NCBI RefSeq assembly: GCF_902364365.1
Contig: NZ_CABJDN010000001.1
Coordinates: 248,001 to 312,000 of the forward strand
Length of the DNA stretch: 64,000 bases
Direction of reading: 5' to 3'
DNA from: Bacteroides intestinalis
GTDB lineage: Bacteria; Bacteroidota; Bacteroidia; Bacteroidales; Bacteroidaceae
Both the position numbers and the translations under genes were made by a program. Below the pieces are notes generated by a model. The model made no database searches. It was not told the DNA's origin and saw only the letters and a list, made by a program, of their open reading frames with translations. Shown here one piece after another: positions 1,702-60,372 of this stretch (positions within the stretch are counted from its first letter, which is position 1; the number at the start of each line of letters is the position of its first letter).

Positions 1702-1729
1702 TAATTAGTCATTTGTAATTAGTAATTAT
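1702..1729 (+). repeat. Heptad tract between sufB and sufC
   Basis: Four consecutive 7-mers, TAATTAG, TCATTTG, TAATTAG and TAATTAT, fill the sufB-sufC spacer and end 4 bases before the sufC ATG. They sit where a ribosome binding site would be. The tract belongs to the same class as the heptad tracts in the dcw operon but has a different core. Confidence 0.6.
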
Positions 1730-1733
1730 AGAA

Positions 1734-2486
1734 ATGTTAGAGATAAAAGACCTGCATGCCAGTGTAAATGGCAAAGAGATATTGAAGGGCATCAACCTGT
1801 CGGTAAAAGCAGGTGAGGTGCATGCTATTATGGGGCCGAACGGTTCCGGTAAGAGTACTCTTTCGGCTGTATTGGTAGGTAATCCTGCCTTTGAAGTGAC
1901 AAAGGGAAGCGTGACTTTCTGCGGTAAGAACCTTTTGGACTTTTCACCGGAAGACCGTAGTCATGAGGGCATCTTCCTCAGTTTCCAATATCCGGTAGAA
2001 ATTCCGGGTGTGAGTATGGTCAACTTTATGCGTGCAGCGGTGAATGAGCAACGTAAATACAATCATCTGCCTGCTCTCAGTGCAAGCGAGTTCCTGAAGT
2101 TGATGCGTGAAAAGCGTGCTATTGTGGAACTGGACAATAAACTGGCTAACCGTTCGGTGAACGAAGGTTTCTCCGGTGGTGAGAAGAAGCGGAATGAAAT
2201 CTTCCAGATGGCGATGCTGGAACCGAAATTGAGTATTCTGGATGAAACGGATTCCGGGCTGGATATCGATGCTTTGCGTATCGTGGCCGAAGGTGTGAAC
2301 AAACTAAAAACACCGGAGAACAGCACCATTGTCATCACTCACTACCAACGCTTACTGGATTATATCAAACCTGACGTCGTACATGTGCTTTACAAAGGTC
2401 GTATCGTGAAGACTGCGGGACCGGAATTGGCTCTGGAACTGGAAGAGAAGGGGTATGACTGGATTAAGAAGGAACTAGGAGAGTAA
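1734..2486 (+). CDS. sufC: SufC ATPase of the Fe-S assembly complex
   Basis: SufC is the ABC-type ATPase that drives conformational change in the SufBC2D scaffold; it is soluble and has no transport role. The 250-residue protein has Walker A (GPNGSGKST, about residues 34-42), the signature [10 protein letters not shown] (about 146-155) and the SufC-type Walker [13 protein letters not shown] (about 164-175), followed by the switch His in VITHYQR. It lies between sufB and the inserted GxxExxY gene, and the operon resumes with sufD about 500 bases later. Confidence 0.96.
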
Positions 2487-2495
2487 TTACATTTT

Positions 2496-2526
2496 TTAGA
2501 CGCGGATGGCACGGATGACGCGGATT
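2496..2526 (+). repeat. Left inverted repeat of GxxExxY cassette
   Basis: A 31-bp element starting TTAGACGCGG, 9 bases after the sufC stop. It contains three 9-bp units (CGCGGATGG, CACGGATGA, CGCGGATTT). Its reverse complement is found at 2942-2972 with 4 differences, all transitions. The pair brackets the GxxExxY gene. Confidence 0.85.
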
Positions 2527-2541
2527 TTTTATTAGTGCATT

Positions 2542-2979
2542 ATGAGTTTGACACAGGCGGATAAAACTGATGCTATTATAAATGCATTTTATGATGTGTA
2601 TAATGAGCTTGGGTATGGGTTTATTGAAAATGTATATCAGAATGCATTATATAGGGAGCTGTTGAGACGTGATATTCCCTGTGTAGCACATCCGAAAATA
2701 AATGTTTATTATAAGGATGAAGTAGTCGGTTATTATGAAGCTGATATAATTGTATATAATTCTGTTATTTTAGAATTAAAAGCGGTCACCCGACTATCTA
2801 AAGAACATGAATTGCAATTGGTCAATTATTTGAAAGCAACAGATATAGAAGTGGGATTATTATTAAACTTTGGTCCCAAACCAGAAATTAGTAGAAAGGT
2901 TTTTTCCCATTACTATAGAGAACGTCTACAGAATAATAGTGAATCCGCGTCATCCGCGTTATCCGTGTCTAAGAAATAA
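2542..2979 (+). CDS. GxxExxY protein, PD-(D/E)xK nuclease fold
   Basis: A 145-residue member of the GxxExxY family (PDDEXK_3), for which no firm cellular role is known to me. The naming motif is GFIENVY (residues 26-32). A nuclease-like active site is visible as Asp68 (EADIIVY) and Glu78-x-Lys80 (ILELKAV), so the catalytic residues appear intact. The gene interrupts the suf operon between sufC and sufD. It is visibly more AT-rich than its neighbours and is bracketed by 31-bp inverted repeats. The 3' repeat is translated as the last residues (ESASSALSVSKK), so the true protein core ends near residue 130. Context and composition suggest insertion by transfer. A mobile or repeat-linked role is inference. 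Confidence 0.85.
   Translation: MSLTQADKTDAIINAFYDVYNELGYGFIENVYQNALYRELLRRDIPCVAHPKINVYYKDEVVGYYEADIIVYNSVILELKAVTRLSKEHELQLVNYLKATDIEVGLLLNFGPKPEISRKVFSHYYRERLQNNSESASSALSVSKK
2942..2972 (-). repeat. Right inverted repeat of GxxExxY cassette
   Basis: This is the reverse-complement partner of 2496-2526 (27 of 31 positions identical), built of the same 9-bp units. It overlaps the last codons of the GxxExxY gene and ends 5 bases before its stop codon. Confidence 0.85.
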
Positions 2980-2992
2980 AATATAAACGTAT

Positions 2993-4336
2993 ATGAATGC
3001 AGAACAACAATACATAGATCTTTTCTCCCAGACGGAAGCGATGATATGCCAGCACAGCACCGAGGTGATGAATACCCCTCGCGCGACTGCGTTTGCCGAC
3101 TTTGAACGGCTTGGCTTTCCTACCCGTAAACAGGAGAAATATAAATATACCGATGTCAGCAAGTTCTTTGAACCGGACTATGGGTTGAACCTGAACCGTC
3201 TGGATATTCCGGTAAATCCCTATGAAGTATTCAAATGTGACGTACCCAATATGAGTACCTCTCTGTACTTTGTAGTGAATGATGCTTTTTACAATAAAGC
3301 ATTACCTGCCCCACATCTGCCCGATGGAGTCATCTTTGGTAGTTTGAAGGAGATGGCAGAGAAGCATCCGGAACTGGTAAAGAAGTACTATGGCAAGCTG
3401 GCGGACACTTCAAAAGATGGAGTAACAGCATTCAATACCACTTTTGCGCAAGACGGTGTGCTGCTATATGTACCTAAGAACGTTGCTTTGGAACGTCCCA
3501 TTCAGTTGGTAAACATCCTGCGTGGTGACGTGAACTTCCTGGTGAACCGCCGGGTATTGATTGTATTGGAAGATGGCGCACAGGCACGTATGCTGGTGTG
3601 TGATCATGCCATGGATGCCGTGAACTTCCTGGCAACCCAGGTGATAGAAGTATTTGTAGGTGAGAATGCTGTCTTTGACCTTTACGAACTGGAAGAAACG
3701 CATACAAGTACCGTACGTATCAGCAATATGTATGTGAGACAGGAAGCCAACAGCAATGTATTGCTGAATGGCATGACCTTGCATAACGGCACTTCCCGCA
3801 ACACCACCGAAGTATTGCTGGCAGGTGAAGGCGCCGAAATCAACCTTTGCGGTATGGCCATTGCAGATAAGAATCAGCATGTAGACAACAATACAAGCAT
3901 AGACCATGCCGTGCCTAACTGTACGAGTAATGAACTCTTCAAGTATGTGCTCGATGACCAGTCAGTCGGTGCATTTGCCGGTCTGGTGTTAGTACGTCCG
4001 GATGCGCAACATACCAGTTCGCAACAAACGAACCGGAACCTTTGCGCCACACGTGAGGCACGTATGTATACGCAGCCGCAACTGGAAATTTATGCCGATG
4101 ATGTAAAGTGTAGCCATGGCGCTACCGTTGGCCAGTTGGATGAGAATGCACTTTTCTATATGCGTCAGCGCGGTATTCCGGCACGTGAAGCCCGCTTATT
4201 GCTGATGTTTGCCTTCGTGAACGAAGTAATCGATACCATCCGTCTGGATGCATTGAAAGATCGCTTACATCTCTTGGTAGAGAAACGTTTCCGTGGTGAA
4301 CTGAATAAGTGCCAAGGCTGTGCGATATGCAAGTGA
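2993..4336 (+). CDS. sufD: Fe-S cluster assembly protein SufD
   Basis: SufD is the second beta-helix subunit of the SufBC2D scaffold. The 447-residue protein shows the SufD-type N-terminus (FPTRKQEKYKYTDVSKFF), the beta-helix core with repeated hydrophobic strands, and the C-terminal block EIYADDVKCSHGATVGQLDENALFYM with the paired Cys-His that closes the SufB-SufD interface. A Cys-rich tail (KCQGCAICK) ends the protein. It starts 13 bases after the inserted GxxExxY gene and is followed 23 bases later by sufS, so it still belongs to the suf operon. Confidence 0.95.
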   Translation: MNAEQQYIDLFSQTEAMICQHSTEVMNTPRATAFADFERLGFPTRKQEKYKYTDVSKFFEPDYGLNLNRLDIPVNPYEVFKCDVPNMSTSLYFVVNDAFYNKALPAPHLPDGVIFGSLKEMAEKHPELVKKYYGKLADTSKDGVTAFNTTFAQDGVLLYVPKNVALERPIQLVNILRGDVNFLVNRRVLIVLEDGAQARMLVCDHAMDAVNFLATQVIEVFVGENAVFDLYELEETHTSTVRISNMYVRQEANSNVLLNGMTLHNGTSRNTTEVLLAGEGAEINLCGMAIADKNQHVDNNTSIDHAVPNCTSNELFKYVLDDQSVGAFAGLVLVRPDAQHTSSQQTNRNLCATREARMYTQPQLEIYADDVKCSHGATVGQLDENALFYMRQRGIPAREARLLLMFAFVNEVIDTIRLDALKDRLHLLVEKRFRGELNKCQGCAICK

Positions 4337-4359
4337 GAATATATTAATACCTAAACAAC

Positions 4360-5574
4360 ATGTATGATATTCAAAAGATAAGAGCCGATTTCCCGATACT
4401 TTCCCGTGAAGTGTACGGCAAACCATTAGTCTATTTGGATAATGGGGCGACGACACAGAAGCCGCGTTGTGTGGTGGATGCCATAACGGATGAATATTAT
4501 TCTGTCAATGCCAATGTGCACCGTGGCGTACACTTCCTGTCGCAACAGGCAACGGAACTGCACGAGGCAAGCCGAGAGACGGTGCGGAAGTTCATCAATG
4601 CCGGTTCTATAAATGAAATCGTATTTACACGGGGAACCACGGAAAGCATCAATCTGTTAGCCTCCAGTTTCGGTGAGGCATTTCTGCATCCGGGTGACGA
4701 AGTGATTGTTTCCGTAATGGAACATCATAGTAATATCGTTCCCTGGCAACTGCTGGCCGAACGGAAGCGTATCAATCTGAAGGTTATTCCGATGAACGAC
4801 CGCGGTGAACTTCTGATGGATGAATACGAGAAGCTTTTCACTGACCGAACGAAGATTGTGAGCGTAGTACATGTGTCCAATGTTTTGGGTACGGTCAATC
4901 CTATCAAGGAAATGATTAAGATTGCCCATAATCATGATGTACCTTTCCTGGTAGATGCGGCACAATCCATTCCTCACATGGCAGTGGACGTGAAAGATCT
5001 GGACGCTGATTTCCTTGTATTCTCCGGTCATAAAGTGTATGGGCCTACCGGTGTGGGCGTGCTCTATGGTAAGGAAGAATGGCTGAATAAGTTACCTCCT
5101 TATCAAGGCGGCGGTGAGATGATAAAGCATGTATCTTTTGAACGTACTACCTTCAATGAATTGCCGTTTAAGTTCGAAGCCGGTACTCCTGACTATATCG
5201 GTACTACGGGACTGGCGAAAGCTCTCGATTATGTTTCTGCCATTGGCATGGATAAGATTGCCGCTTATGAGCATGAATTGACGGAATATGCCACGCAGCG
5301 ATTGAAAACAATCCCCGGTATGCGTATCTTTGGTGAAGCTGCTGAGAAAGGAAGTGTCATCTCCTTCCTTGTGGGGGATATTCATCACTTCGATATGGGC
5401 ACATTGCTCGATCGTCTCGGCATTGCCGTACGTACAGGACACCATTGTGCCCAACCGTTGATGCAACGCCTCGGCATAGAAGGAACAGTGCGTGCTTCTT
5501 TTGGAATCTATAATACGAAAGAAGAAATAGATGTCTTGGTGGCAGGTATCGAACGCGTCAGCAAGATGTTCTAA
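4360..5574 (+). CDS. sufS: SufS cysteine desulfurase
   Basis: A PLP-dependent group II cysteine desulfurase that takes sulfur from cysteine as a persulfide and feeds it to the SUF scaffold. The 404-residue protein has the PLP Schiff-base lysine in SGHKVYGPTG (about Lys225), a PLP-contacting His in MEHHSNIVPW, and the persulfide cysteine in RTGHHCAQP (about Cys363) on the short lobe expected of SufS. It is the last gene of the operon, and a weak hairpin follows. SufE or SufU, the usual partner, is not in the window. Confidence 0.95.
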   Translation: MYDIQKIRADFPILSREVYGKPLVYLDNGATTQKPRCVVDAITDEYYSVNANVHRGVHFLSQQATELHEASRETVRKFINAGSINEIVFTRGTTESINLLASSFGEAFLHPGDEVIVSVMEHHSNIVPWQLLAERKRINLKVIPMNDRGELLMDEYEKLFTDRTKIVSVVHVSNVLGTVNPIKEMIKIAHNHDVPFLVDAAQSIPHMAVDVKDLDADFLVFSGHKVYGPTGVGVLYGKEEWLNKLPPYQGGGEMIKHVSFERTTFNELPFKFEAGTPDYIGTTGLAKALDYVSAIGMDKIAAYEHELTEYATQRLKTIPGMRIFGEAAEKGSVISFLVGDIHHFDMGTLLDRLGIAVRTGHHCAQPLMQRLGIEGTVRASFGIYNTKEEIDVLVAGIERVSKMF

Positions 5575-5594
5575 GCATAAATATAAAATTTAGG

Positions 5595-5623
5595 TTTCGT
5601 AAGCCTTATCAAAGCTTGCGAAA
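5595..5623 (+). terminator. Possible terminator after sufS
   Basis: A hairpin with a 10-bp stem (TTTCGTAAGC against GCTTGCGAAA, one G-T pair) and a 9-base loop lies 20 bases after the sufS stop. There is no clean T run behind it, so termination is uncertain. Confidence 0.4.
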
Positions 5624-5719
5624 CTTGAGTATAAAATATAAAAAGAAGGTCACTGCAACTTTCCGTCCTGTCTGTGCGTCTAATAGAATGCAAATAACTT
5701 AAATAAACAGAGAAAGATC

Positions 5720-6040
5720 ATGTTAGTAACAACAACCCCAATTATCGAGGGTGGACGTATCACCCGCTATTACGGTATAGTTTCAGGCGAGACGATTATC
5801 GGTGCCAATGTATTCCGTGACTTTTTTGCCAGTATTCGTGATGTAGTGGGCGGACGCAGCGGCTCTTACGAGGAAGTGCTGCGTGAAGCGAAAGATATTG
5901 CCCTTCGTGAAATGCAGGAGCATGCCAAGGCACTTGGAGCCAATGCTGTGATTGGCGTGGATTTGGACTATGAAACAGTAGGTGGAAGCGGCAGTATGCT
6001 GATGGTAACTGCTTGCGGCACGGCTGTGACCGTAGAATAA
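5720..6040 (+). CDS. YbjQ/UPF0145 family protein
   Basis: A 106-residue protein of the YbjQ (DUF74) family, which forms small pentameric cytosolic assemblies of unknown function. The family hallmarks are present: the N-terminal strand [21 protein letters not shown], a central helix with many Ala/Glu residues ([22 protein letters not shown]), and the closing strand [13 protein letters not shown] followed by [13 protein letters not shown]. It stands alone 145 bases after sufS and converges with the anti-sigma gene. Confidence 0.88.
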
Positions 6041-6080
6041 TCAATACAGAGGGAGAACCGGAAAGCTCTTCCCCTGCATA

Positions 6081-7052
6081 TCAATGCTTGGGAGAATAAT
6101 CGCTGATGATTACTTTTCCCTTTTTTTGTTCCAGTTTGGCTATTCCCAGATCATTGAGCGCTTGCAGTACCTCTTCCAAGGAAGTTGTTCGCGGGAAGCG
6201 GAAATGAATGCGTTGTTTCAGCAAGTCGGGCGAATGAAAGATGATACTGGTATTATACCATGTGCCGACAGACTTCATTATCTCCGCCAGTTCGGCATCA
6301 TCGAAGCTGAACTCTCCTTTGGTCCATCCTTCCGTTGCGGTGAGTTGTGCTTCGGATATGGTGAAACCATTATCTTCAGACAATATAGCTTGCTGTCCGG
6401 GCAATATGTCTTTCTGCCGTGTTTGTTTCTCGTCGCTGACGCGGACGCGCCCCTGAAATAAAGTGACTGCCGCTACTTTTCCCGGATAGGCATTTACATC
6501 GAATACCGTGCCCAATACCTGTGTCTGCATCTTACCGGAAGAAACAATGAAAGGACGTGCACTATCTTTTGCCACTTCGAAACGTGCTTCTCCTGTCAGA
6601 TGGACTTCACGGGTCCCCTCTGCCGGGAATTGTTTAGGATATTCCAGGCGGGAATTGGCGCTGAGCGTAACCTGTGTACCATCGTCCAAAGTGATTTGCA
6701 TGGTAGTGGCTGGGGGAGTTGAAAGAGTAATCCTGCCATTGCTCTCTGAGGTGATGATTGCTTCGGGAACATCCAGGGCCGCAAAGATTTCGATATCTTG
6801 AATCGTGTCTTTGTTGGTAATACGGGGCACGATAAGCACTACCAGCACTACGATGGCAGCTGCAATGCCGGAAGTCCACATCTGTATGATGCGTCTGCGT
6901 TTTTGGGCGTCTTGCCGGGAGGCAAAAGCATTCCATGCCGCGCGGGTTTCTTCTTCCGAAGGTAAGTCTCCGAGCGCTTCTCCGAAGGCATTCAGTAATC
7001 TGAGGTCTTCAGTATCCATCTTGAAATCATTTTCTTTTTTCTCTTCCATCAT
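6081..7052 (-). CDS. FecR-type anti-sigma factor
   Basis: An inner-membrane anti-sigma factor that holds an ECF sigma factor and relays a signal from an outer-membrane receptor. The 323-residue protein has a cytosolic N-terminal part, one membrane segment (about residues 59-77, rich in Ala, Ile and Val), a periplasmic FecR beta domain (about 105-205) and the Bacteroidetes C-terminal DUF4974-type domain (about 255-320). The start at 7052 overlaps the sigma-factor stop in an ATGA arrangement, so the two are translationally coupled. A second ATG directly follows the first. The likely partner is the outer-membrane protein at 7908-10493. Confidence 0.9.
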   Translation of the reverse strand: MMEEKKENDFKMDTEDLRLLNAFGEALGDLPSEEETRAAWNAFASRQDAQKRRRIIQMWTSGIAAAIVVLVVLIVPRITNKDTIQDIEIFAALDVPEAIITSESNGRITLSTPPATTMQITLDDGTQVTLSANSRLEYPKQFPAEGTREVHLTGEARFEVAKDSARPFIVSSGKMQTQVLGTVFDVNAYPGKVAAVTLFQGRVRVSDEKQTRQKDILPGQQAILSEDNGFTISEAQLTATEGWTKGEFSFDDAELAEIMKSVGTWYNTSIIFHSPDLLKQRIHFRFPRTTSLEEVLQALNDLGIAKLEQKKGKVIISDYSPKH

Positions 7053-7573: not shown

Positions 7574-7596
7574 TCTCTGATTCTTTATTTAGTCTG

Positions 7597-7604: not shown

Positions 7605-7670
7605 AGGATTATCCTTTATTTCCTTTATCAATCTCCTTAAACTGTCGTTGCACCGTTGTGGGAAGGACAT

Positions 7671-7761: not shown

Positions 7762-7907
7762 ACGGTAAAAGCATTTACCGCCATATGTAACGCTCTTTAC
7801 CCCTTATTGTAACGCTCTTTACCTCGGTATGTAACGCTCTTTACCTCGGCGTGTAAACGGAGTTATCATTTGAGGTAAACAGAATCATCCTTTGGGGTAA
7901 ACGGAAT
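7762..7907. repeat. 22-bp-period palindromic array
   Basis: Seven units start at 7762, 7784, 7806, 7828, 7850, 7872 and 7894, an exact 22-bp step; the last runs across the neighbouring stop codon. Units at 7784, 7806 and 7828 share GTAACGCTCTTTAC, whose ends are complementary. The unit at 7762 contains CGGTAAAAGCATTTACCG, a perfect 7-bp stem with a 4-base loop. The last three units carry GTAAAC or GTAAAC-like cores. The array begins in the stop codon region of the outer-membrane protein gene and fills much of the 334-base gap before the sigma gene. Confidence 0.85.
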
Positions 7908-14881: not shown

Positions 14882-14946
14882 ATTCGTTATTATTATGAAC
14901 TTAATAATTGCTTTTTAGGGGTGATAAATGATAATTTGAGAGGGAA

Positions 14947-15008
14947 TGGGTATGCGGACGACACGGATAAGGCGTTCGTCCGCCTTATCCGTGTCGTCCG
15001 CGTACCCA
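14947..15008. repeat. Long hairpin of the 9-bp repeat family
   Basis: Arms 14947-14974 and 14981-15008 form a 28-bp stem with one T-G mismatch and a 6-base loop. The left arm holds the 9-bp units TGCGGACGA and CACGGATAA, the same type of unit as the repeats bracketing the GxxExxY gene at 2.5-3.0 kb. It lies 3 bases past the stop of the LacZ-type gene. It could stop transcription, but there is no T run. Confidence 0.85.
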
Positions 15009-15010
15009 TA

Positions 15011-33380: not shown

Positions 33381-33490
33381 CCTCATGAAGCGAAGTAAAT
33401 CGTCTCGTGAGCTGAAAAAATCCGTCCTGTGAGGTGAAAATATCTATCCCGCGGGACGGATTTTTCTATCTCGTGAGATGAAAAGAAAAA
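33381..33490. repeat. 22-bp-period palindromic array
   Basis: Five units start at 33381, 33403, 33425, 33447 and 33469, an exact 22-bp step. Each begins with a small palindrome: CTCATGAAG, CTCGTGAG, CCTGTGAGG, CCCGCGGG and CTCGTGAG. An A-rich tail with GAAAA or its complement fills the rest of each unit. The array begins 17 bases past the stop of the DUF3109 gene and ends at the terminator hairpin. Confidence 0.82.
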
Positions 33491-33572: not shown

Positions 33573-33607
33573 GTGACTAATCACTAATGGTTAATCATTA
33601 GTCATTG
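33573..33607. repeat. Heptad tract at the gyrB 3' end
   Basis: Five 7-mers in register: GTGACTA, ATCACTA, ATGGTTA, ATCATTA, GTCATTG. The outer parts (TGACTAAT and ATTAGTCA) are complementary. It begins 8 bases past the gyrB stop. Confidence 0.6.
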
Positions 33608-39182: not shown

Positions 39183-39223
39183 AATACTATTTATTATTTT
39201 ACTATTTACATTTAATCTGTAGC

Positions 39224-42011: not shown

Positions 42012-42108
42012 CATTTACCATTTACCATTTACAATGTACCATTTACCATTAAGATTGCACCACTACCCTACATAGCAAATTGTACATTGTAAATGGTAAA
42101 TTGTACAT
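42012..42108. repeat. Heptad inverted repeat between ftsQ and ftsA
   Basis: Left arm: 7-mers CATTTAC at 42012, 42019, 42026 and 42040 with AATGTAC at 42033. Right arm: TGTACAT, TGTAAAT, GGTAAAT and TGTACAT from 42081 to 42108. The arms are complementary over about four units. The right arm ends at the ftsQ stop codon. Confidence 0.8.
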
Positions 42109-44229: not shown

Positions 44230-44299
44230 TTTAGTGTTTAGCGGTTAGTGATTAGTGATTAGCGCTGTGTGTACGGGGCTAATCACTAAACACTAATCG
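44230..44299. repeat. Heptad inverted repeat between murG and murC
   Basis: Left arm of five 7-mers (TTTAGTG, TTTAGCG, GTTAGTG, ATTAGTG, ATTAGCG; 44230-44264), right arm of three (CTAATCA, CTAAACA, CTAATCG; 44279-44299). The arms are complementary. The murG stop codon (CTA at 44293-44295) lies in the last right-arm heptad. Confidence 0.82.
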
Positions 44300-45447
44300 T
44301 TATTTATCAGTTTCAATACTTCTTTTGCAATAATGGTTGCCGAATCCGGCAAAGCCAGTTTTGCAATGTTTTCGCTCAATGTTTTCAGCTTCTCGACATC
44401 TGTGACAGTTTCAAGGGCCACAGGAACCAGATGCTTCATAGCATCTACATCTTTCACATAAATGGCGGCTTTCTTATCTACCAGTGCCAGTGCATTTTTA
44501 GTCTGATGGTCTTCTGCCACATTGGGTGAAGGCACCAGAATGACCGGTTTGTTCAGCAGGCAGAATTCTGAGATAGAACCGGCACCTGCACGGGAAATAA
44601 CCAGATCGGCAGCTGCATATGCACTTGCCATGTCTTTGATGAAATCCGTTACATACAGATTCGGGATAGCAGGAATACGTGGATTACGTATAGCTTCGCC
44701 CGTTGCGGTGGTAATGGCATCCTTGACTTGCTGGATATATATTTTTCCTGTCTGCCAGATGAACTGAATGTCGCCGTTTGCTTTTATCGTATCCAATGCA
44801 GCAATGAGGGTCTGATTGATGGTACGTGCCCCCAAACTTCCACCCAGTATCAATATTGTTTTCTTCTCCGGATTAAAGCCGAAAGAGGCTACAGCTTCTT
44901 CGCGGCTCTGTTTATTTGCTAACAGGTTCTGACGTACGGGATTCCCTGTCATGATAATCTTATCTGAGGGGAAGAATTTCTCCATTCCATCATATGCTAT
45001 GCAGATTTTACATGCTTTCTGTGCAAGCAATTTGTTTGTCACTCCTGCATAAGAATTCTGCTCTTGTATCAAAGTAGGAACTCCCATCATGCCCGCTACT
45101 TTTAATGTAGGACCACTGGCATATCCGCCTACACCTACTGCTACCTGCGGGTTAAATTCTTTCAGGATACGGCGTGCTTTCCACTGGCTACGCAACAACT
45201 TGATAATTACTGCAAAGTTCTTCCATAAGCGCTTACGGTCGAATCCTGCTACAGGCAGACCGATAATTTTATATCCTGCATCGGGCACGCGTTGCATCTC
45301 CATTCGTCCTTCTGCACCTACAAAGAGGATCTCTGCATCAGGGCGTAGTTCCTTGATGGCGTTGGCGATAGATACTGCAGGAAATATATGTCCTCCTGTA
45401 CCTCCACCACTGATGATGACGCGCGGTCCGTTATTTTTTGTTTCCAT
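44293..45447 (-). CDS. murG: MurG, lipid II-forming GlcNAc transferase
   Basis: A 384-residue peripheral membrane glycosyltransferase that turns lipid I into lipid II. The N-terminal glycine loop is ISGGGTGGHIFPAVSIA, the second is LILGGSLGARTINQTL, and the donor site shows DLVISRAGAGSISEFCLLNKP. It lies 11 bases after ftsW. Its last codons and TAG stop are part of a heptad repeat. Confidence 0.96.
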   Translation of the reverse strand: METKNNGPRVIISGGGTGGHIFPAVSIANAIKELRPDAEILFVGAEGRMEMQRVPDAGYKIIGLPVAGFDRKRLWKNFAVIIKLLRSQWKARRILKEFNPQVAVGVGGYASGPTLKVAGMMGVPTLIQEQNSYAGVTNKLLAQKACKICIAYDGMEKFFPSDKIIMTGNPVRQNLLANKQSREEAVASFGFNPEKKTILILGGSLGARTINQTLIAALDTIKANGDIQFIWQTGKIYIQQVKDAITTATGEAIRNPRIPAIPNLYVTDFIKDMASAYAAADLVISRAGAGSISEFCLLNKPVILVPSPNVAEDHQTKNALALVDKKAAIYVKDVDAMKHLVPVALETVTDVEKLKTLSENIAKLALPDSATIIAKEVLKLINND

Positions 45448-46744: not shown

Positions 46745-46765
46745 AAATTAAAAATTAATAATTAA
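46745..46765. repeat. Heptad tract between murD and ftsW
   Basis: Three 7-mers in register, AAATTAA, AAATTAA and TAATTAA, fill most of the 25-base spacer. The murD stop codon (TTA at 46762-46764) lies inside the third. AT-rich, so the periodicity is less certain than elsewhere. Confidence 0.45.
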
Positions 46766-48096
46766 AGGTCTCTTACGCATGCCTTGAATTGATCGCCCCG
46801 GTCTTCATAGCTGTTGAAAAGATCGAAACTGGCACAACAAGGACTGAGTAATACGGTTTCACCCTTTTGGGCCAGACGGAATGCTGCGTCTACAGCATCC
46901 TTCATGCCGGTTTGTACATCGGCTACGGGCAATCCCATGCGATCAAAGAAGTCATGTAGCTTCTCATTGTGCAATCCCAGATAAACTAAGGCTGAACACT
47001 TCTCACGTACTAAATCTTCTATTTCCGTATAGTCATTACCTTTATCTTTTCCTCCCAGGATAAGCACGGTTTTCGTCTTCATACTTTGCAGGGCGTACCA
47101 ACAGGAATTTACGTTTGTGGCTTTAGAGTCATTGATGAACTCCACACCACGTACAGTTGCAACTTTTTCCAGGCGATGTTCCACCCCTTTAAAGTCAGAC
47201 AATGCCCGACGAATATATTCTTTCTCTATTCCGGCAAGATTGGCTGAGATACCTGCGGCGAGAGAATTGTATAAATTATGTGTACCTTGCAGGGCCAGTT
47301 TTTCTTGCTCCATGTTGAAGTCAATGGGTTCATTGATTTCAACTTCGCCGTCTTCCACATAAGCTATAGCTCCATCTTCTTTTACTGCAGAGAACGGATA
47401 AAGGTGGGCTCGCAGTCCATGCTTGTCCAGTTCCCGCTTGATGATGGGGTCATCATTCCAGAAGATGAAAGCATCTTCAGGTGTCTGGTTCTGTGTGATG
47501 CGGAATTTGGCATCCACATAATTCTGCATACAATGGTCGTAACGGTCCAGATGATCGGGTGTGATGTTCATCAGTACGGCAATATTGGCACGAAACTTAT
47601 ACATATTATCCAGTTGGAAAGAGCTGAGCTCAATCACATAATAATCATGTTGGTCTGTGGCTACCTGCAAGGCAAGGCTCTTACCTATGTTACCAGCCAA
47701 TCCCACATTCAGACCTGCACTTTTGAAAATGTGGTAAATAAGTGAGGTGGTAGTGGTCTTGCCATTTGAACCGGTAATACAGATCATTTTTGCATTGGTA
47801 TAGCGTCCCGCAAACTCTATCTCAGAGATAACAGGTGTACCTTGCTCTTTCAGTTTCAGTATCATCGGAGCGTCGTTGGGAATACCAGGGCTTTTCACCA
47901 CTTCATCCGCACTCAAAATCAGTTCCTCCGTATGCTGTCCTTCTTCCCAGGCAATACTGTACTTATCCAGCACTTCCTTATATTTATCTTTGATGGCGGA
48001 CATGTCGGATACGAATGTGTCGAAACCCTTCACTTTGGCGAGTACGGCAGCACCTGCACCGCTCTCTCCGGCTCCTAATACTACAATTCTACTCAT
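46762..48096 (-). CDS. murD: UDP-N-acetylmuramoylalanine-D-glutamate ligase
   Basis: A 444-residue cytosolic ligase that adds D-glutamate to UDP-MurNAc-L-Ala. Motifs are IVVLGAGESGAGAAVLA at the N-terminus, the ATP loop GSNGKTTTTSLIYH (about residues 109-122), NITPDHLDRYD, and FINDSKATNVNS in the C-terminal domain. It lies between mraY and ftsW. The gap to mraY holds a heptad inverted repeat. Confidence 0.96.
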   Translation of the reverse strand: MSRIVVLGAGESGAGAAVLAKVKGFDTFVSDMSAIKDKYKEVLDKYSIAWEEGQHTEELILSADEVVKSPGIPNDAPMILKLKEQGTPVISEIEFAGRYTNAKMICITGSNGKTTTTSLIYHIFKSAGLNVGLAGNIGKSLALQVATDQHDYYVIELSSFQLDNMYKFRANIAVLMNITPDHLDRYDHCMQNYVDAKFRITQNQTPEDAFIFWNDDPIIKRELDKHGLRAHLYPFSAVKEDGAIAYVEDGEVEINEPIDFNMEQEKLALQGTHNLYNSLAAGISANLAGIEKEYIRRALSDFKGVEHRLEKVATVRGVEFINDSKATNVNSCWYALQSMKTKTVLILGGKDKGNDYTEIEDLVREKCSALVYLGLHNEKLHDFFDRMGLPVADVQTGMKDAVDAAFRLAQKGETVLLSPCCASFDLFNSYEDRGDQFKACVRDL

Positions 48097-48114
48097 ATAT
48101 TCTTTAGTTATGAA

Positions 48115-48217
48115 CTACCAGCTATCAGTAGTGGCTGGAGTTGGTAGTTGCTACAAGTTTGTTATTTATCAGCAACCAGTAGCGAGCACTTGTAGCTTGT
48201 AGCTCGCGGCTGGTAGC
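48115..48217. repeat. Heptad inverted repeat between mraY and murD
   Basis: Right arm: TTGTAGC, TTGTAGC, TCGCGGC and TGGTAGC in 7-bp register (48190-48217). Left arm has the complements CTACCAGC (48115-48122) and GCTACAAG (48150-48157). The tract fills most of the 125-base spacer, and no other feature is seen in it. Confidence 0.75.
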
Positions 48218-48221
48218 TCTA

Positions 48222-49490: not shown

Positions 49491-49493
49491 ATG

Positions 49494-49573
49494 ATTAGTG
49501 ATTAGTGGTTAGTGATTAGTGATTAGTGTCTTGCATTGTGATAATGCAGTTGCTAATCACTCATCACTAACCG
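49494..49573. repeat. Heptad inverted repeat between murE and mraY
   Basis: Left arm of five 7-mers (ATTAGTG four times, GTTAGTG once; 49494-49528), right arm CTAATCA, CTCATCA, CTAACCG (49553-49573). Between them TTGCATT and AATGCAG form a smaller stem. The murE stop (CTA at 49567-49569) lies in the last right-arm heptad, and the left arm occupies the mraY ribosome-binding region. Confidence 0.85.
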
Positions 49574-51018
49574 TTAAAAACTTTATTTAGTTCTTCTTTA
49601 TCATCAAAATGATGTTTAATCCCTTTGACTTCCTGATAGTTCTCATGACCCTTTCCGGCTACGAGAATAACATCACCGGGCTGCGCCAGCATGCATGCTG
49701 TTTTGATAGCTTCGCGCCGGTCGGCAATGCTGATGGTTTTCTGCATGTCATCTTTGTCCAATCCGGCAAGCATATCATTGATAATATCTTGCGGCTCTTC
49801 AAAGCGGGGATTGTCTGAAGTGATGATAACACGATCACTTGCTTTGGCCGCCTCTTTTGCCATGATGGGGCGTTTACCTTTGTCTCGGTTGCCGCCTGCA
49901 CCGACTACAGTAATAATTTTTCCTTTTCCTTCGAGTACACCATGAATGGCATTCAAAACATTGATGAGGGCATCCGGTGTGTGTGCATAGTCCACAATGG
50001 CAGTGATGCCTTTAGGTGAACGTACAGCCTCGAAGCGTCCGGTCACAGGCTTCAGGGTGCTGAGTGCAACGAGTACGTCTTCTTCTTTCTTTCCAAGCAA
50101 TACGGCTGCACCGAATACTGCCAGCAAGTTTGAAGCATTGAAACGACCAATGAAATGTACAGCCAATTCATGGTTGTTGAAGTCGAGCAACATCCCTTCA
50201 AAATGAGATTCCAATATTTTACCCTTGAAGTCGCTGAGGCTACGCAAGGAATAGGTATATACTTTGGAACGTGTGTTTTGGGTCATGACGAGTCCGTTCT
50301 TGTCATCCAGATTAGTCAGACTGAAAGCACTTTTCGGCATATCATCGAAAAACTTCTTCTTAGCCTTGAGGTAGTTCTCCACAGTCTTGTGGTAATCCAG
50401 GTGGTCACGTGTCAGATTGGTAAAGATCCCCCCCGCAAAGTGTAGACCACTAATGCGTTTCTGAGCAATGGAATGTGAACTTACTTCCATGAAGACATAT
50501 TTGCACCCGGAGTCCGCCATCTGCCCCAGCAACTGATTTAGGGTGATGGGGTCGGGGGTGGTATGTTCAGTTGGGATTGCCTGATCATCTATATAGTTAC
50601 AGACTGTAGAGATCAGTCCTACCTTGTAACCGAAATAGCGGAACGTATTATATAATAAGGTAGCGATGGTGGTTTTCCCGTTTGTTCCGGTTACGCCTAC
50701 CAATTCCATTTTGGAGGTTGGGTCGTCGTAAAAAGTAGTGGCTATTTTACCAACAGCATCTTCACTGTCTTTCACCTGGATGTAGGTGATATCTTCTTTC
50801 TTTTCTTCAGGCACATCTTCGCAAAGCACCGCAACGGCACCTTTCTCTATGGCAGCGGGAATGTAAGCATGCCCGTCAGTCTGGGTACCGCGCATGGCCA
50901 TGAACAGATGTCCGGCTTGCACCAGGCGGGAGTCGATATTTACCCCCGTTATTTCCGTCTCCGTACTTCCAATAACTTGTATCGGTTGTATTGCTTTCAG
51001 TAATTCACTTAATATCAT
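49567..51018 (-). CDS. murE: MurE, UDP-MurNAc-tripeptide synthetase
   Basis: A 483-residue cytosolic ligase that adds the third peptide residue, in Bacteroides expected to be meso-diaminopimelate. The ATP loop is [17 protein letters not shown] (about residues 108-124). The C-terminal domain has [17 protein letters not shown], which contains the DNPR motif associated with diaminopimelate selection. It lies 32 bases after ftsI. Its stop codon is part of the heptad repeat that precedes mraY. Confidence 0.96.
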
Positions 51019-54499: not shown

Positions 54500-54500
54500 T

Positions 54501-54528
54501 CATCACTAATCACTAATCGTTAATCACT
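54501..54528. repeat. Heptad tract between mraZ and rsmH
   Basis: Four 7-mers in register, CATCACT, AATCACT, AATCGTT and AATCACT, fill the mraZ-rsmH spacer. The mraZ stop codon (TCA at 54524-54526) lies in the fourth. This tract has no opposite arm. Confidence 0.75.
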
Positions 54529-55000: not shown

Positions 55001-55025
55001 GCTACCTTATTATAATAAGCGACGG

Positions 55026-55055
55026 TAAAAGTACACATTTCCCCACAATTCCCCA
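55026..55055 (-). promoter_or_regulatory. mraZ/dcw promoter with two MraZ boxes
   Basis: On the minus strand the repeats TGGGGAATTG and TGGGGAAATG (boxes at 55055-55051 and 55045-55041) lie directly upstream of TACTTTTA (55033-55026), a near match to the -7 element. TGGGN repeats separated by 5 bases are the known MraZ site in E. coli. Here two boxes overlap the expected -33 region. Confidence 0.75.
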
Positions 55056-55091
55056 CGAGTTTTAACTAAAAACTTTTAGAGAAGTTTTCAA

Positions 55092-55132
55092 CACCCTGTT
55101 CATTGTTTATTTCATTGATAATGAACAGGGTG
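55092..55132. repeat. 13-bp inverted repeat upstream of mraZ
   Basis: CACCCTGTTCATT (55092-55104) and its perfect complement at 55120-55132, with a 15-base loop. It lies between divergent genes, so there is no obvious transcript to terminate on the minus side. Confidence 0.65.
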
Positions 55133-55185
55133 ATGAAAGCCCTTCTTGGTGGGGGATTAACGTAGTTTTATAGTCTCAGTTTTGT

Positions 55186-55317
55186 ATCCGGACCAAACTT
55201 GGGACATACTTGCTCCGTACCAACTCCGTACTTTCTCCGTGTAGAGGTACCTCTGAGTGGAGAATGTACGGAGCAAGTATGGTGCAGATACGTTCCGGGT
55301 ATGGAGCAGACGTGGTC
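55186..55317. repeat. 11/22-bp-period array with long inverted repeat
   Basis: CTCCGT recurs at 55213, 55224 and 55235 (11-bp step), and GTATGG at 55277 and 55299 (22-bp step). A 16-bp inverted repeat (CATACTTGCTCCGTAC at 55205-55220 and its perfect complement at 55266-55281) encloses the palindrome AGAGGTACCTCT (55243-55254). It occupies the middle of a 690-base gap between mraZ and the GH2 gene. Confidence 0.75.
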
Positions 55318-55344
55318 ATTTACAACTCAAAGCGTACCTCTTAA

Positions 55345-55503
55345 GATAAAGGCATAGGGCGTAGAGTGCCCTTTGGGGAAATTGATAAATATGGATTGTG
55401 TGGAGTATTGCCGGAAGAAGATGCACCTAAAATGAAATATTGGAAGGCATTACACTTGTACCGATGGGAGCAGCCCGTTTGCGTATTTCTGCTTTTCCTG
55501 TAA
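55345..55503 (+). other. 52-codon open stretch without a start
   Basis: The frame is open from after a TAA at 55342-55344 to a TAA at 55501-55503 with no upstream ATG. It encodes residues such as RRVPFGEIDKYGLCGVLPEE and MKYWKALHLYRWEQPV, which look protein-like. I do not recognise a family. It may be a decayed gene remnant or chance. Nothing else is seen between it and the GH2 promoter. Confidence 0.25.
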
Positions 55504-55618
55504 TTGAATAGGATAAGTCTCAGGTGTCGTGGCTGGTTATTTAGTAATGAATGGACAATTAGACAAAATTGGATTAAAAAATAGTGATTATTGGGATACT
55601 TATCTTCTGCTTTTGCCC

Positions 55619-55626
55619 TATTTTTG
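55619..55626 (+). promoter_or_regulatory. -7 element for the GH2-sulfatase genes
   Basis: TATTTTTG, a perfect TAnnTTTG, 64 bases before the GH2 start. No -33 TTTG is seen, which may mean an activator such as the nearby hybrid sensor is required. Confidence 0.45.
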
Positions 55627-55690
55627 TATCGGATGTTGTAAACAGTTGTTATTGCATCAAATTATGTACACCTAAAATAATACTATCTTC

Positions 55691-58369
55691 ATGAGCAAAA
55701 TCATTCATTTAATTCTAATTGTTTTATTGTCAGTTCCCTGCTGTGCATTGCAGGCGTCTCACCAACCAGAGTTTTCCACTGCCGGTTTCTTCGAATTACC
55801 CAATTCCGGACGTGAAGTGTTTTCCATGAATCCGGCCTGGCGTTTTTATAAAGGAAGCGTTGCTGGTGCTGAAGCTATAAGTTTTGATGATACGGAATGG
55901 GCTGTAGTCTCCCTGCCTAATGGGATTGAATACCTGCCTACGGAAGCCAGTGGTTGTATCAATTACCAAGGTGAAGTTTGGTATCGTAAGCACTTCACTC
56001 CCGCAGATGCATTGAAAGGAAAGAAGTTGTTCCTGCATTTCGAGGCCATCATGGGGAAGAGCAAGGTGTTTGTGAACGGCCGGTTGATGAAAGAACATTT
56101 TGGTGGCTACTTGCCGGTGGTAGTAGATGTGACCGATGCCCTGAAATGGGGAGAGGATAATGTGATTGCCGTATGGGCGGACAATAGTGATGATCCGTCT
56201 TATCCTCCCGGAAAGGCACAGGATGTTCTTGATTTTACCTACTTCGGTGGTATCTACCGTGATTGCTGGCTGATAGCTCATAATCCTGTTTTTGTCACCG
56301 ACCCTAACTTTGAGGACGAGGTCGCAGGCGGCGGCCTGTTTGTGGCTTATGATAAGGTATCGGATGCTTCGGCTGAAGTACTATTGAAAGCTCATGTACG
56401 TAATGATAGTCGTAAAACTTTTACAGGAGTTGTGGAATATGAATTGCAGCAACCGGATGGTACACAGGTGGCGTTCCTGAATGATAAAATACAGGTACGT
56501 CCGGGTAAGGCTGTTACTTCAAAAGATAAAATCACGGTAAAGAATCCATTGTTGTGGAGTCCGGAGACTCCTACCTTATATAATCTGATTGTACGTATTC
56601 GCGACCACGAAGGAAAAGTGGTGGATGGTTACCGTCGTCGTATTGGCATCCGCAGTGTGGAATTTAAGGGTAAGGATGGTTTCTGGCTGAATGGCAAACC
56701 CTATGAAGAACCGTTGATCGGTGCCAATCGCCACCAGGACTTTGCCATAGTAGGTAATGCAGTCCCCAACAGTATTCACTGGCGTGATGCAAAGAAACTG
56801 CGTGATGCCGGACTAAAGGTGATCCGTAATGCCCATTGTCCGCAAGACCCGGCGTTCATGGATGCATGCGATGAACTCGGTCTGTTTGTAATTGTCAACA
56901 CTCCGGGCTGGCAGTTCTGGAATGATGCTCCTGAATTTGCGCAGCGTGTATATAGTGATATACGTAACTTGGTACGCCGTGACCGTAACCATGCCTGTGT
57001 CTGGTTGTGGGAGCCTATCCTGAATGAAACCTGGTATCCGGATGATTTTGCCAAGAAGACCCGTGAACTGGTCGATCAGGAATATCCTTACCCTTATTGT
57101 TATTCTGGTTGCGACAGCGGAGCGCGTGGCAAAGAATATTTCCCGGTACTTTTCACTCATCCGTCTTTTGATGGGAAAGCATGGGGCGATCCGAATGCCG
57201 ATCCTAAAATCACCTATTTTACCCGCGAGTGGGGCGACAATGTGGATGATTGGAGTTCGCATAACTCACCCAGTCGTGTGGCACGCAACTGGGGAGAGCA
57301 ACCTATGCTCATCCAGGCCCGGCATTATGCCAATCCCACATATACCTATACTTGCTATGACGCCCTTTATCGTACTCCCCGGCAACACGTGGGCGGATGT
57401 CTCTGGCACTCGTTCGACCATCAGCGTGGTTACCATCCCGATCCGTTTTATGGTGGATTGATGGATGTATTCCGTCAGCCCAAGTATTCGTACTATATGT
57501 TCAAGGCACAGCGTTCGCCCGAGAAACAGGAACGCCTTTTCGAGACTGGCCCGATGGTTTATATAGCCCATGAAATGACTCCATTCTCAAGTAAGGATGT
57601 CACTGTTTATTCGAATTGCGAGGAAGTACGGCTAACTTTCATGAAAGACGGGAAAGTATCTACTTACAACAAGCCGCTGACAGAAGCCGGTATGCCTTCA
57701 CCTGTTATCACTTTCCCGGATGTTTACGACTTCCAGATGGACAAAGCCATGTCCCGGAAGAAAAAGCAAGAGGATGTGCTTTTGCTGGCCGAAGGGTTGA
57801 TAGATGGTAAAGTAGTTGCCACTCATGAGGTGCATCCGGCACGCCGTCCGGAGAAGCTATTGCTCTGGATAGATAATGAAGGGGTTGACCTGAAAGCCGA
57901 TGGTTCCGACTTTGTAACAGTGGTGGCGGCTGTTGCTGATAAGAATGGAAATATCAAGCGCCTGAATAATTATTATGTGAAGTTCCATGTGGAAGGTGAA
58001 GGGCGGCTTTTAGGAGATGCTTCCATATTGGCAAACCCCGCGCCTGTAAAGTGGGGCACCGCTCCGGTACTGATACAATCGACTTTGAAACCGGGCAAGA
58101 TAAAAGTGACAGCCAGTGTGTTGTTTGAAGGTTCGCAGATGCCCACAGGTGCTGTACTGGAATTGGAAAGTGTGCCGACAGATCATTCGTTGCTATATTC
58201 AGGGAAAGAAGCGGCACTTATTTCAAAGCTTCCTGTTGCCGGATTGGGAGGAACAGTTGCAAAATCGGCCGCTGAGTTGGAGCAGGAACGGTTGCAGAAA
58301 GAGCGGAATGCGCAAAAGCTGAAAGAAGTCGAGAAGCAACAAGAGGATTTCGGAGAGAAGAGTAAGTGA
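55691..58369 (+). CDS. GH2-family glycoside hydrolase
   Basis: An 892-residue secreted retaining glycosidase with signal peptide (about residues 1-22). A sugar-binding jelly roll (about 40-200), an immunoglobulin-like domain, and the TIM barrel follow. The acid/base Glu is in EPILNETWYP (about Glu446) and the nucleophile in FTREWGDN (about Glu513). Beta-rich C-terminal domains (about 640-855) end in a charged coiled coil (AELEQERLQKERNAQKLKEV). It is not LacZ-type, having no small-chain domain. It precedes a sulfatase by 43 bases, so both probably act on a sulfated glycan. Activity (galactosidase, glucuronidase or other) cannot be read. Confidence 0.88.
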   Translation: MSKIIHLILIVLLSVPCCALQASHQPEFSTAGFFELPNSGREVFSMNPAWRFYKGSVAGAEAISFDDTEWAVVSLPNGIEYLPTEASGCINYQGEVWYRKHFTPADALKGKKLFLHFEAIMGKSKVFVNGRLMKEHFGGYLPVVVDVTDALKWGEDNVIAVWADNSDDPSYPPGKAQDVLDFTYFGGIYRDCWLIAHNPVFVTDPNFEDEVAGGGLFVAYDKVSDASAEVLLKAHVRNDSRKTFTGVVEYELQQPDGTQVAFLNDKIQVRPGKAVTSKDKITVKNPLLWSPETPTLYNLIVRIRDHEGKVVDGYRRRIGIRSVEFKGKDGFWLNGKPYEEPLIGANRHQDFAIVGNAVPNSIHWRDAKKLRDAGLKVIRNAHCPQDPAFMDACDELGLFVIVNTPGWQFWNDAPEFAQRVYSDIRNLVRRDRNHACVWLWEPILNETWYPDDFAKKTRELVDQEYPYPYCYSGCDSGARGKEYFPVLFTHPSFDGKAWGDPNADPKITYFTREWGDNVDDWSSHNSPSRVARNWGEQPMLIQARHYANPTYTYTCYDALYRTPRQHVGGCLWHSFDHQRGYHPDPFYGGLMDVFRQPKYSYYMFKAQRSPEKQERLFETGPMVYIAHEMTPFSSKDVTVYSNCEEVRLTFMKDGKVSTYNKPLTEAGMPSPVITFPDVYDFQMDKAMSRKKKQEDVLLLAEGLIDGKVVATHEVHPARRPEKLLLWIDNEGVDLKADGSDFVTVVAAVADKNGNIKRLNNYYVKFHVEGEGRLLGDASILANPAPVKWGTAPVLIQSTLKPGKIKVTASVLFEGSQMPTGAVLELESVPTDHSLLYSGKEAALISKLPVAGLGGTVAKSAAELEQERLQKERNAQKLKEVEKQQEDFGEKSK

Positions 58370-58412
58370 CGAGTTATAAGCAAAATTTGAATTAATTAAA
58401 AACATATTCAAT

Positions 58413-59939
58413 ATGAAATATCTAGGAATAACCTTAGGGACAGGCCTGTTGGCAACTGTTTCTTTATGTGGCAATGCGGCAAACAAAGATTCCAAACCTA
58501 ATATAATCTTTATCTTGTGCGATGACATGGGATATGGAGATTTAGGGTGTTACGGACAGAAATATATTCAGACGCCTAACATAGACCGTATGGCGCAGGA
58601 AGGTATGTTGTTTACCCAAGCTTATGCCGGTAGTCCGGTTAGTGCACCTTCCCGTGCTTCTTTGATGACCGGGCAGCATACCGGGCATACCCATGTGCGT
58701 GGAAATAAAGAATATTGGAAGAATGTTCCTACTGTGACATACGGCATCAATGAAGATTTCTCTGTCGTAGGGCAGGAACCGTATGATGAAGGCCACATTA
58801 TCCTGCCCGAAATCATGAAGAAGAACGGCTATACTACAGGTGTATTCGGTAAATGGGCAGGCGGCTACGAGGGCTCCTGTTCCACACCGGATAAACGGGG
58901 GATAGATGAATTCTATGGTTATATTTGTCAGTTCCAGGCACATTTGTACTATCCCAATTTCCTGAACAGATACAGCAAGGAGGAAGGAGATTCCGGAGTC
59001 GTACGTGTTGTTATGGAGGACAATATCAATTATCCTATGTTTGGTGATGATTACAAAAAGCGTTCGCAATATTCTGCCGACCTTATTCATCAGAAAGCTA
59101 TGGAATGGATTGATAAGCAGGATGGTAAACAACCTTTTTACGGCTTCTTCACTTATACGCTTCCGCATGCCGAACTGGCGCAGCCCAACGACTCCATTCT
59201 GAAAGGCTATAAAAAGCAATTCTTCAGAGATAAAACCTGGGGAGGGTATAAAGGTGGGCGCTACAATGCCGCGGAGCATACCCATGCCGAGTTTGCCGGT
59301 ATGATTACCCGCCTCGACTGTTATGTAGGCGAAGTCTTGAAGAAACTGAAAGAGAAAGGGCTCGATGATAACACGATTGTTATCTTTAGCAGTGATAACG
59401 GCCCTCACGAAGAGGGTGGAGCGGATCCCGAATTTTTCGGACGGGATGGTAAGTTGCGCGGTCTGAAACGGCAATGCCATGAGGGCGGTATACGAATCCC
59501 CTTTATCGTGCGTTGGCCCGGGCGTATATCAGCCGGTACGGTGAATGATCACCAATTGGCTTTCTACGATGTGATGCCTACATTCTGTGAGTTGATGGAG
59601 GATAAAGCGTTCCCGAAGAAATACATAAATAAGAAGATAAAGGATGATTGCTTTGACGGTATTTCCTTTGCTCCTACCTTGTTTGGGGATGACAGCAAGC
59701 AGCAAAAGCATGATTTCCTTTATTGGGAGTTCCATGAAACAGACCAGATTGGTGTCCGTGTGGGAGACTGGAAATTGTTGGTTAAGAAAGGGACACCTTA
59801 TCTGTATGATCTCGCAAATGATGTGCATGAAGATCATGATATTGCAGCTGCTCATCCCGATATTGTGAAGCAGATGAAAGAGATTATAAGGCGGGAGCAC
59901 AGAGATAGTGAGATGTTTTCTGTTACGTTGCCTGAATAA
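58413..59939 (+). CDS. S1-family sulfatase
   Basis: A 508-residue secreted sulfatase with signal peptide ending near NAANKD. Metal-binding residues are in ILCDDMGYGDLG. The residue to be converted to formylglycine is Ser77 in VSAPSRASLMTGQHTGH, so this is the Ser-type that needs the anaerobic maturase. FGKWAGGYEG, SSDNGPHEEGG and GGIRIPFIVRWPG complete the active site. It follows the GH2 gene, most likely in one transcript. The sulfated substrate is unknown; host or algal glycans are possible. Confidence 0.93.
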   Translation: MKYLGITLGTGLLATVSLCGNAANKDSKPNIIFILCDDMGYGDLGCYGQKYIQTPNIDRMAQEGMLFTQAYAGSPVSAPSRASLMTGQHTGHTHVRGNKEYWKNVPTVTYGINEDFSVVGQEPYDEGHIILPEIMKKNGYTTGVFGKWAGGYEGSCSTPDKRGIDEFYGYICQFQAHLYYPNFLNRYSKEEGDSGVVRVVMEDNINYPMFGDDYKKRSQYSADLIHQKAMEWIDKQDGKQPFYGFFTYTLPHAELAQPNDSILKGYKKQFFRDKTWGGYKGGRYNAAEHTHAEFAGMITRLDCYVGEVLKKLKEKGLDDNTIVIFSSDNGPHEEGGADPEFFGRDGKLRGLKRQCHEGGIRIPFIVRWPGRISAGTVNDHQLAFYDVMPTFCELMEDKAFPKKYINKKIKDDCFDGISFAPTLFGDDSKQQKHDFLYWEFHETDQIGVRVGDWKLLVKKGTPYLYDLANDVHEDHDIAAAHPDIVKQMKEIIRREHRDSEMFSVTLPE

Positions 59940-59941
59940 TA

Positions 59942-60172
59942 TTATTCCTGTGATATATCTCTGGGCAATACTTTGAATTTCTTTTTGAAACAACTGCTAA
60001 AATATTTAGGATCATTATATCCTACAGTATAAGCCAAATCGGAAATACGCATGCCGGGGTTGTCAGAAAGAATCTTATAAGCTGCTTGTAAGCGTATATC
60101 AGGACACATGATGCTAATTATATGACTTTTCATCGTATTCGGAACTTTCGTACCTTTTAAAAGCTCATTGTA
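59942..60172 (-). pseudogene. Remnant of an AraC-type HTH, probably of a hybrid sensor
   Basis: The open frame encodes the second half of an AraC helix-turn-helix domain ending in MRISDLAYTVGYNDPKYFSS and the usual closing FKKKFKVLP. The first half and all upstream domains are missing; the frame runs back only to a TAA at 60173-60175. The match is to the C-termini of hybrid two-component regulators. It lies 2 bases past the sulfatase stop, on the opposite strand. It is best read as what remains of a second such regulator. Confidence 0.75.
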
Positions 60173-60240
60173 TTATGACATATTCAAGCCGCTTTCTTCC
60201 TTTCATGTATCTTCTTTAAGCAGGTATAGTTAATCCTGTT

Positions 60241-60372
60241 TGTTTCATGCCTTGAAACAACTTGTTTCATTGCTTGAAACAAAGTGTTTCACACCGAGAA
60301 ACAAACTGTTTCAAGGCATGAAACAAACGGTTCCCTGTGGCGAAACAGACGGTTTCACCTTGGGAACCGATT
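60241..60372. repeat. 22-bp-period palindromic array
   Basis: Six units start at 60241, 60263, 60285, 60307, 60329 and 60351, an exact 22-bp step. The first four have TGTTTC(N7)GAAACA. The units at 60241 and 60307 are exact reverse complements over 19 bases. Units five and six have lost the simple core but remain complementary to each other (GGTTCCC with GGGAACC, GAAAC with GTTTC). The array ends 2 bases from the stop codon of the hybrid sensor gene. Confidence 0.88.

Follow-up and report, generated by a model that had tools for sequence, protein, structure and literature searches.

Many fixed-period intergenic tracts of Bacteroides are probably copies of dispersed, REP-like repeat families

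Published work on short repeats between bacterial genes covers, in the accessible portions of the reports, an excess of heptads in bacteria, REP families and MITEs (PMC4679880, PMC4692102, PMC3733652, PMC5771137). Here we compare these systems with the tandem tracts and hairpins found between the genes of a 64,000-nucleotide stretch of Bacteroides intestinalis (contig NZ_CABJDN010000001.1, positions 248,001 to 312,000; hereafter the window) and of its relatives. REP and BIME elements come close, being short, multi-copy, extragenic palindromes of several families, but the Bacteroides hairpins have arms built of tandem heptads, and their conserved part is the tip. CGTC repeats are reported in Bacteroidetes in the available part of one account (PMC3733652); by eye, no consistent REP-type GTAG or CGTC end tag appeared at 69 hairpin places, GTAG occurring only in arms of the CTACAAG type. 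The STRR repeats of cyanobacteria, TAACTGA of Beggiatoaceae and GGGAATC of Xanthomonas are likewise heptads that lie between genes, close to gene ends, and vary in copy number, and the STRR-type definition, tandem 7-bp units in spacers, describes the tracts of the window and of our survey. In these systems each organism has a single heptad or only a few, as far as the available text of their descriptions goes (PMC4679880, PMC4692102), whereas Bacteroides has many, paired as arms about one tip. Membership in the TAACTGA type, characterized in the same partial source by a single prevailing heptad with related heptamers seldom repeated (PMC4679880), was rejected because many different heptads occur per genome and in one window. 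The accessible part of PMC4692102 notes inverted pairs of the Xanthomonas heptads and cites for Helicobacter pylori a GTGATTA heptad, which is the window's TTAGTGA unit. CRISPR arrays, whose repeats are given as 24-48 bp with unique spacers in the part of PMC3733652 available, were ruled out by units of 21-23 bp.

Our literature searches found no description of these Bacteroides families, a search with six unit sequences returned unrelated papers only, and the accessible portions of the four reports cited above do not describe them. Against Rfam 15 at gathering score, the only match in the window is one tRNA. Complementary arms and inverted tips would also be expected from quasipalindrome correction and template switching; unlike the Bacteroides hairpins, they are a mutational process and not a repeat family. 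The BrickBuilt repeats of Porphyromonas gingivalis contain inner tandem repeats. By the description in the available part of PMC5771137, these repeats and MITEs resemble the present hairpins in being non-coding and dispersed, in Bacteroidales; a possible difference is that the hairpins show no target duplication visible by eye at the few readable empty sites.

A preliminary description of the window, made from its sequence alone, had held that the tracts share a period but not a sequence, each with its own core, and are therefore unlike REP elements. That view proved mostly wrong: for the classes that we could assign, each period is the length of the repeat unit in a dispersed family of its own with conserved sequence, the families being termed F7, F9, F11 and F22, to which arrays of 21-23 bp with other half-sites are added. 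We estimate a probability of roughly 0.6 that many tracts derive from a number of such non-coding, non-autonomous intergenic families, REP- or MITE-like and each of fixed unit length.

Hairpins of the F7 family are about 70-110 bp long and carry a common tip, by eye GGCTGCGCTATCATNCCGCATGGC, on at least six kinds of arm. Nine aligned hairpins with unlike arms show a conserved tip and covarying arms; 82.9% of arm cells are paired, versus 65.2% in shuffled and 29-39% in slid alignments, and 41 cells are altered on both sides, versus 14.9 in shuffles, a result that is favoured by the preselection of these nine for tip and paired arms. A model, R1, for which these nine hairpins supplied both the seeds and the structure, has matches in 45 of the 60 Bacteroides genomes searched (E 0.1; at most 79 candidates scored per genome). 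In a phylum sample scanned at a stricter E-value and with fewer scored candidates, it matches 10 of 148 genomes at E 0.001; one of these is the centre genome, and the others match at E 5.9e-6 or weaker. Inspection with flanks of 69 of 146 R1 matches, picked by hand and mostly limited to the better strand per place, revealed the same or a similar tip on CTACAAG, TTAGTGA, GAAGAAT, TACAATT, TTGACAA, TGAATTA and GAGAGTT arms. The matches adjoin stop codons, with a few inside long open reading frames or gene-poor stretches, and many units fit K-A-N-N-A-N-T by eye (uncounted; exceptions are CCCTAAC, CGTTAAA and TTTAGAG). As markers, the 13-mer GCCATGCGGCRTA alone was weak (206 matches versus 134 for its reversed control in 12 genomes), and a strict tip pattern matched only 2 of 101 genomes.

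The heptad is also the commonest unit in our survey of spacers, as plain polymerase slippage at heptads would predict; Mrazek et al. hypothesized that 7 nt is the polymerase contact length (cited in the available parts of PMC4679880 and PMC4692102). Slippage leaves inverted arms and 21-23-bp arrays unaccounted for, and the shared tip speaks against it as a full account; it is highly improbable.

Dispersal extends to units of other lengths. Patterns searched in the 60 genomes with one mismatch allowed, and against reversed-pattern controls, returned 180 matches in 18 genomes for F9 (CACCACAGA-N3, 9 bp; control 1), 243 in 14 genomes for F11 (CTCCGTAC-N3, 11 bp; control 2) and 761 in 27 genomes for F22 (GTTTCA-N5-TGAAAC-N5, searched with a closing GTTTCA; control 1). 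These counts, like those of R1, are of places, with both strands and overlapping units included, and hence exceed element numbers. About 10 of 29 fold-backs in B. fragilis consist of CACAGA-N3 9-bp units, most with the CACCACAGA base (by eye). The richest family varies by genome, being F22 in G111, F11 in G137, F9 in G006 and F7 in G161; across the 60 genomes, F7 copy number correlates with that of F22 (Spearman 0.40) and F9 (0.34), indicating some dependence among the families, for which genome size may be responsible. The claim that each tract has its own core does not hold for tracts assigned to a family.

The window contains the dcw cluster at 39-55 kb, and its MurD is 97% identical to that of B. 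timonensis and 96% to that of B. cellulosilyticus. The fixed periods first reported there are real. Tandem Repeats Finder places period-7 rows in or at its spacers at 1693-1728, 33578-33606, 39185-39214, 42012-42050, 42077-42105, 44238-44264, 46745-46766, 48189-48204, 49492-49528 and 54502-54528, period-22 rows at 7774-7856, 7853-7907 and 60241-60332, a period-11 row at 55207-55240, and period-9 rows at 2499-2525 and, at a gene end, 2943-2969. R1 matches three window tracts, one of them weakly, and the F11 and F22 patterns match at 55213 and 60242, respectively. The tracts are as follows, with strand where one was assigned:

49491 to 49577, minus strand: heptad hairpin in the murE-mraY spacer, arms TTAGTGA/TCACTAA, tip degenerate; the 5' arm contains the murE stop codon
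49504 to 49577, minus strand: R1 match to this hairpin, 50.7 bits, E 1.9e-7
42012 to 42105, plus strand: heptad hairpin in the ftsQ-ftsA spacer, arms TACCATT/TACAATG, stem found
42018 to 42101, plus strand: R1 match to this hairpin, 46.1 bits, E 2.1e-6
44231 to 44303, minus strand: heptad hairpin in the murG-murC spacer, TTAGTGA arms, tip weak, stem found
44240 to 44303, minus strand: weak R1 match to this hairpin, 32.8 bits, E 0.0021
48097 to 48221, minus strand: CTACAAG/CTACCAG heptads in the mraY-murD spacer, without R1 match in the window copy
1693 to 1733, plus strand: lone TAGTAAT heptad tract 3' of a stop codon (Tandem Repeats Finder)
33574 to 33606: heptad fold-back at a gene end, without a reported R1 match (bounds by eye)
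39185 to 39214: TACTATT heptad tract in the ftsZ-yqeY spacer (Tandem Repeats Finder)
54502 to 54528: ATCACTA heptad tract in the mraZ-rsmH spacer, one arm only (Tandem Repeats Finder)
2499 to 2525: CACGGAT-N2 9-bp units, not matched by the CACCACAGA pattern
14946 to 15009: fold-back of 9-bp units, arms 29 bp, score 26
55207 to 55315: 11-bp fold-back of CTCCGTAC-N3 upstream of mraZ (outer bound by eye)
60238 to 60332: 22-bp palindrome array GTTTCA-N5-TGAAAC-N5, with six pattern matches in the window
7774 to 7907: 22-bp array of two unit types in succession (Tandem Repeats Finder)
33385 to 33480: degenerate 22-bp units, unlike palindromes CTCGTGAG, CCTGTGAGG and CCCGCGGG (by eye, approximate bounds, unscored)

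The orthologous mraY-murD spacers of loci L001-L003 give weak R1 matches (E 0.013-0.069). Arrays of 11 bp stand upstream of mraZ in the window and in L001, L002, L004, L005 and L006, with units that by eye look to have drifted together; in L019, L022 and further loci this position is taken by palindrome arrays of 23 bp.

A survey of 1527 Bacteroidaceae spacers (taken from the window, from 400 kb in each of four genomes and from 80 dcw loci) was scored by lag match against dinucleotide shuffles, with genes defined by a simple longest-ORF (open reading frame) rule and spacers containing N excluded. It yielded 202 tandem tracts, versus 2.6 expected, chiefly at 7 and 21-23 bp; the counts are partly non-independent, as the 80 dcw loci are orthologs of one another. 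Of these tracts, 192 have a period in the range 7-11 or 21-23 (period 7, 74; 8, 8; 9, 3; 10, 19; 11, 3; 21, 13; 22, 55; 23, 17), the other ten lying at 4, 6, 14, 15, 16 and 18, and a rerun that used different spacer bounds and included stretches of G162, selected around hits, yielded a single tract at each of the periods 12 and 24. In E. coli K-12, 114 spacers gave no tract. The window contributed five tracts in 31 spacers (three of period 7, two of period 22; none in shuffles), and seven of its 31 spacers fold back (none in shuffles), in accord with the fold-back first noticed there. The 10-bp peak was dropped as a repeat family, being a conserved site upstream of mraZ: 16 of 19 such tracts are a single ATTGTGGGGA site. 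Direct repeats of ATTGTGGGGA with a 10-bp step lie at 55034-55056 in the window, and many loci have them ahead of mraZ; we presume that they are the MraZ operator (MraZ box).

The tracts had also been said to lie almost only at gene ends. This description suits fold-backs with periodic arms, found in 36 of 544 tandem, 14 of 128 convergent and 5 of 106 divergent spacers, but not the 21-23-bp arrays, of which 27 of 109 are in divergent spacers. Together with the adjacency to stop codons, the higher rate in convergent spacers is what would be seen if gene ends were selected to form RNA hairpins (as terminators or for mRNA 3' protection, using any repeat at hand), and such selection could also place different hairpins in the same spacer. 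Hairpins nevertheless occur in divergent spacers too, presence differs between two close species in 4 of the 13 spacers described below, and stem mismatches on the sense strand of co-directional spacers show no excess of G.T over A.C in tract stems (65 and 79), as opposed to other stems (173 and 116). We therefore consider RNA-level selection very unlikely as the source of the tracts, and the mismatch pattern suggests a DNA-level process.

Comparison of orthologous spacers, which the preliminary description had proposed for strains, revealed differences between species, with unlike heptads at the same place in dcw spacers. Between G162 and G001, whose syntenic blocks are mostly 92-98% alike (one 86%), we counted by eye, among the matches listed, 13 spacers where one or both genomes have a heptad hairpin: six have the same arm type, with the tip inverted in two of them, three have different heptads, and in four the hairpin is confined to one of the genomes, reduced to a remnant or replaced. 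Inverted tips also distinguish L201 from L094, among the matches listed, and L022 from L031. At L247_10-11, G162 has a hairpin where the spacer of G001 and of G152 is only 12 bp long. At L247_11-12, the arms are TTAGTGA in G001, GAAGAAT in G162 and short, tipless GAAGAAT in G152, while G009 and G002 have 22-bp arrays (by eye) and G111 has 18 bp; in this one case, the G001 tip scores 11.5 against the flipped G162 tip but no higher than 9.0 against any of 69 other tips, which would fit a rewriting of the arms about a kept tip. A CCTCC...GGAGG palindromic element replaces the window's murG-murC heptad hairpin in L001, L002, L004 and L010, and among the 80 dcw loci the distance between murG and murC varies from an overlap (-23) to 1014 bp. 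A fold-back AAATGATAATTTA...TAAATTATCATTT lies at about 11188 in L111, at L247_9-10 in G162 and at L247_3-4 in G152, once with a heptad hairpin nested inside, and a CTGTCATCCTGAGCG...GAAGGATCTC element occupies two spacers of L020 (6625-8626).

Pairing outlasts sequence in the longer arrays as well. One 22-bp array reads AAAGATGGCATCTTT in G001 and CAAGATGGCATCTTG in G162, a compensated change in nearly all units, and diverged units flanking palindromic arrays are complementary on the array axis in 287 of 745 cells (0.385), versus 0.23-0.30 on slid axes. This palindromy outside arrays, the near-complete change in one array, the different arms of close relatives at one spacer and the tip scores at L247_11-12 are all consistent with a process that makes or maintains period and complementarity regardless of sequence, such as hairpin-templated slipped re-synthesis building arrays in place. 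Because such a process would not yield units recurring at many loci in many genomes, it is unlikely to explain the tracts by itself. The mechanism first envisaged, which keeps period and complementarity, thus stands in part: covariation, array-flank palindromy and inverted tips speak for it, and conserved sequence within families speaks against it.

The 22-bp arrays could instead be putative operator arrays, bound by cognate DNA-binding proteins at half-sites spaced by a helical turn. Individual genomes contain many arrays in which GTTTCA and TGAAAC take turns at 11-bp intervals, and operator-like pairs such as AAATAGCACCCAAAAACTATC, with a 21-bp step, are found in divergent spacers of several species (L008, L016, L022, L026, L028, L077 and G006). 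Half-sites vary between arrays within one genome, which argues against this explanation and leaves it quite unlikely.

Dispersed, REP-like families remain our preferred explanation, and several observations weigh against it. The single-arm heptads of the window (1693, 39185 and 54502), the 7774 array and the CACGGAT 9-bp tracts fall outside the assigned families. The Y1/RAYT transposase (PF01797) occurs in 3 of 12 hairpin-rich genomes (20 or more R1 matches) and in 9 of the remaining 48; the families are thus mostly without a REP transposase, and RAYT was rejected as the mover, given its absence from 9 of the 12. Target duplication is not evident by eye at the few readable empty sites, and gain is not separable from loss with two genomes. 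Among 21-23-bp arrays, 27 of 109 have a consensus palindrome of at least 7/8 pairs (1 of 109 shuffled), and doubly compensated cells inside arrays with a palindromic consensus of at least 6/8 pairs are few (8; expected 2.1). A stricter G.T/A.C recount on best stems gave 55/70 versus 81/68 (p 0.09), and a DNA-level process is therefore suggested, no more.

Within a family, sequence is conserved while arms and palindromes change in pairs, and a plain REP account leaves this paired change and the tip inversion open. Dispersed REP- or MITE-like elements adjoining stop codons could be moved in trans by some enzyme; once in place, their arms may gain or lose whole units, the tip may be inverted through exchange between both arms, and one arm or unit may be corrected against its complement, so that pairing would outlast sequence. 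More speculatively, and with low probability, a DNA-level process might rewrite both arms jointly, in whole units, about a kept tip, with pairing and period inherited and heptads swapped, possibly from copies elsewhere.

The spacers of Bacteroides, including those of the dcw operon, carry numerous hairpins, and these vary among close relatives. If the hairpins move, a mover of some kind operates in common gut bacteria; if their arms are rewritten in place, they document hairpin-templated DNA synthesis as it occurs in nature. In both cases the hairpins matter for the expression of operons, for strain typing and for how spacers are annotated.

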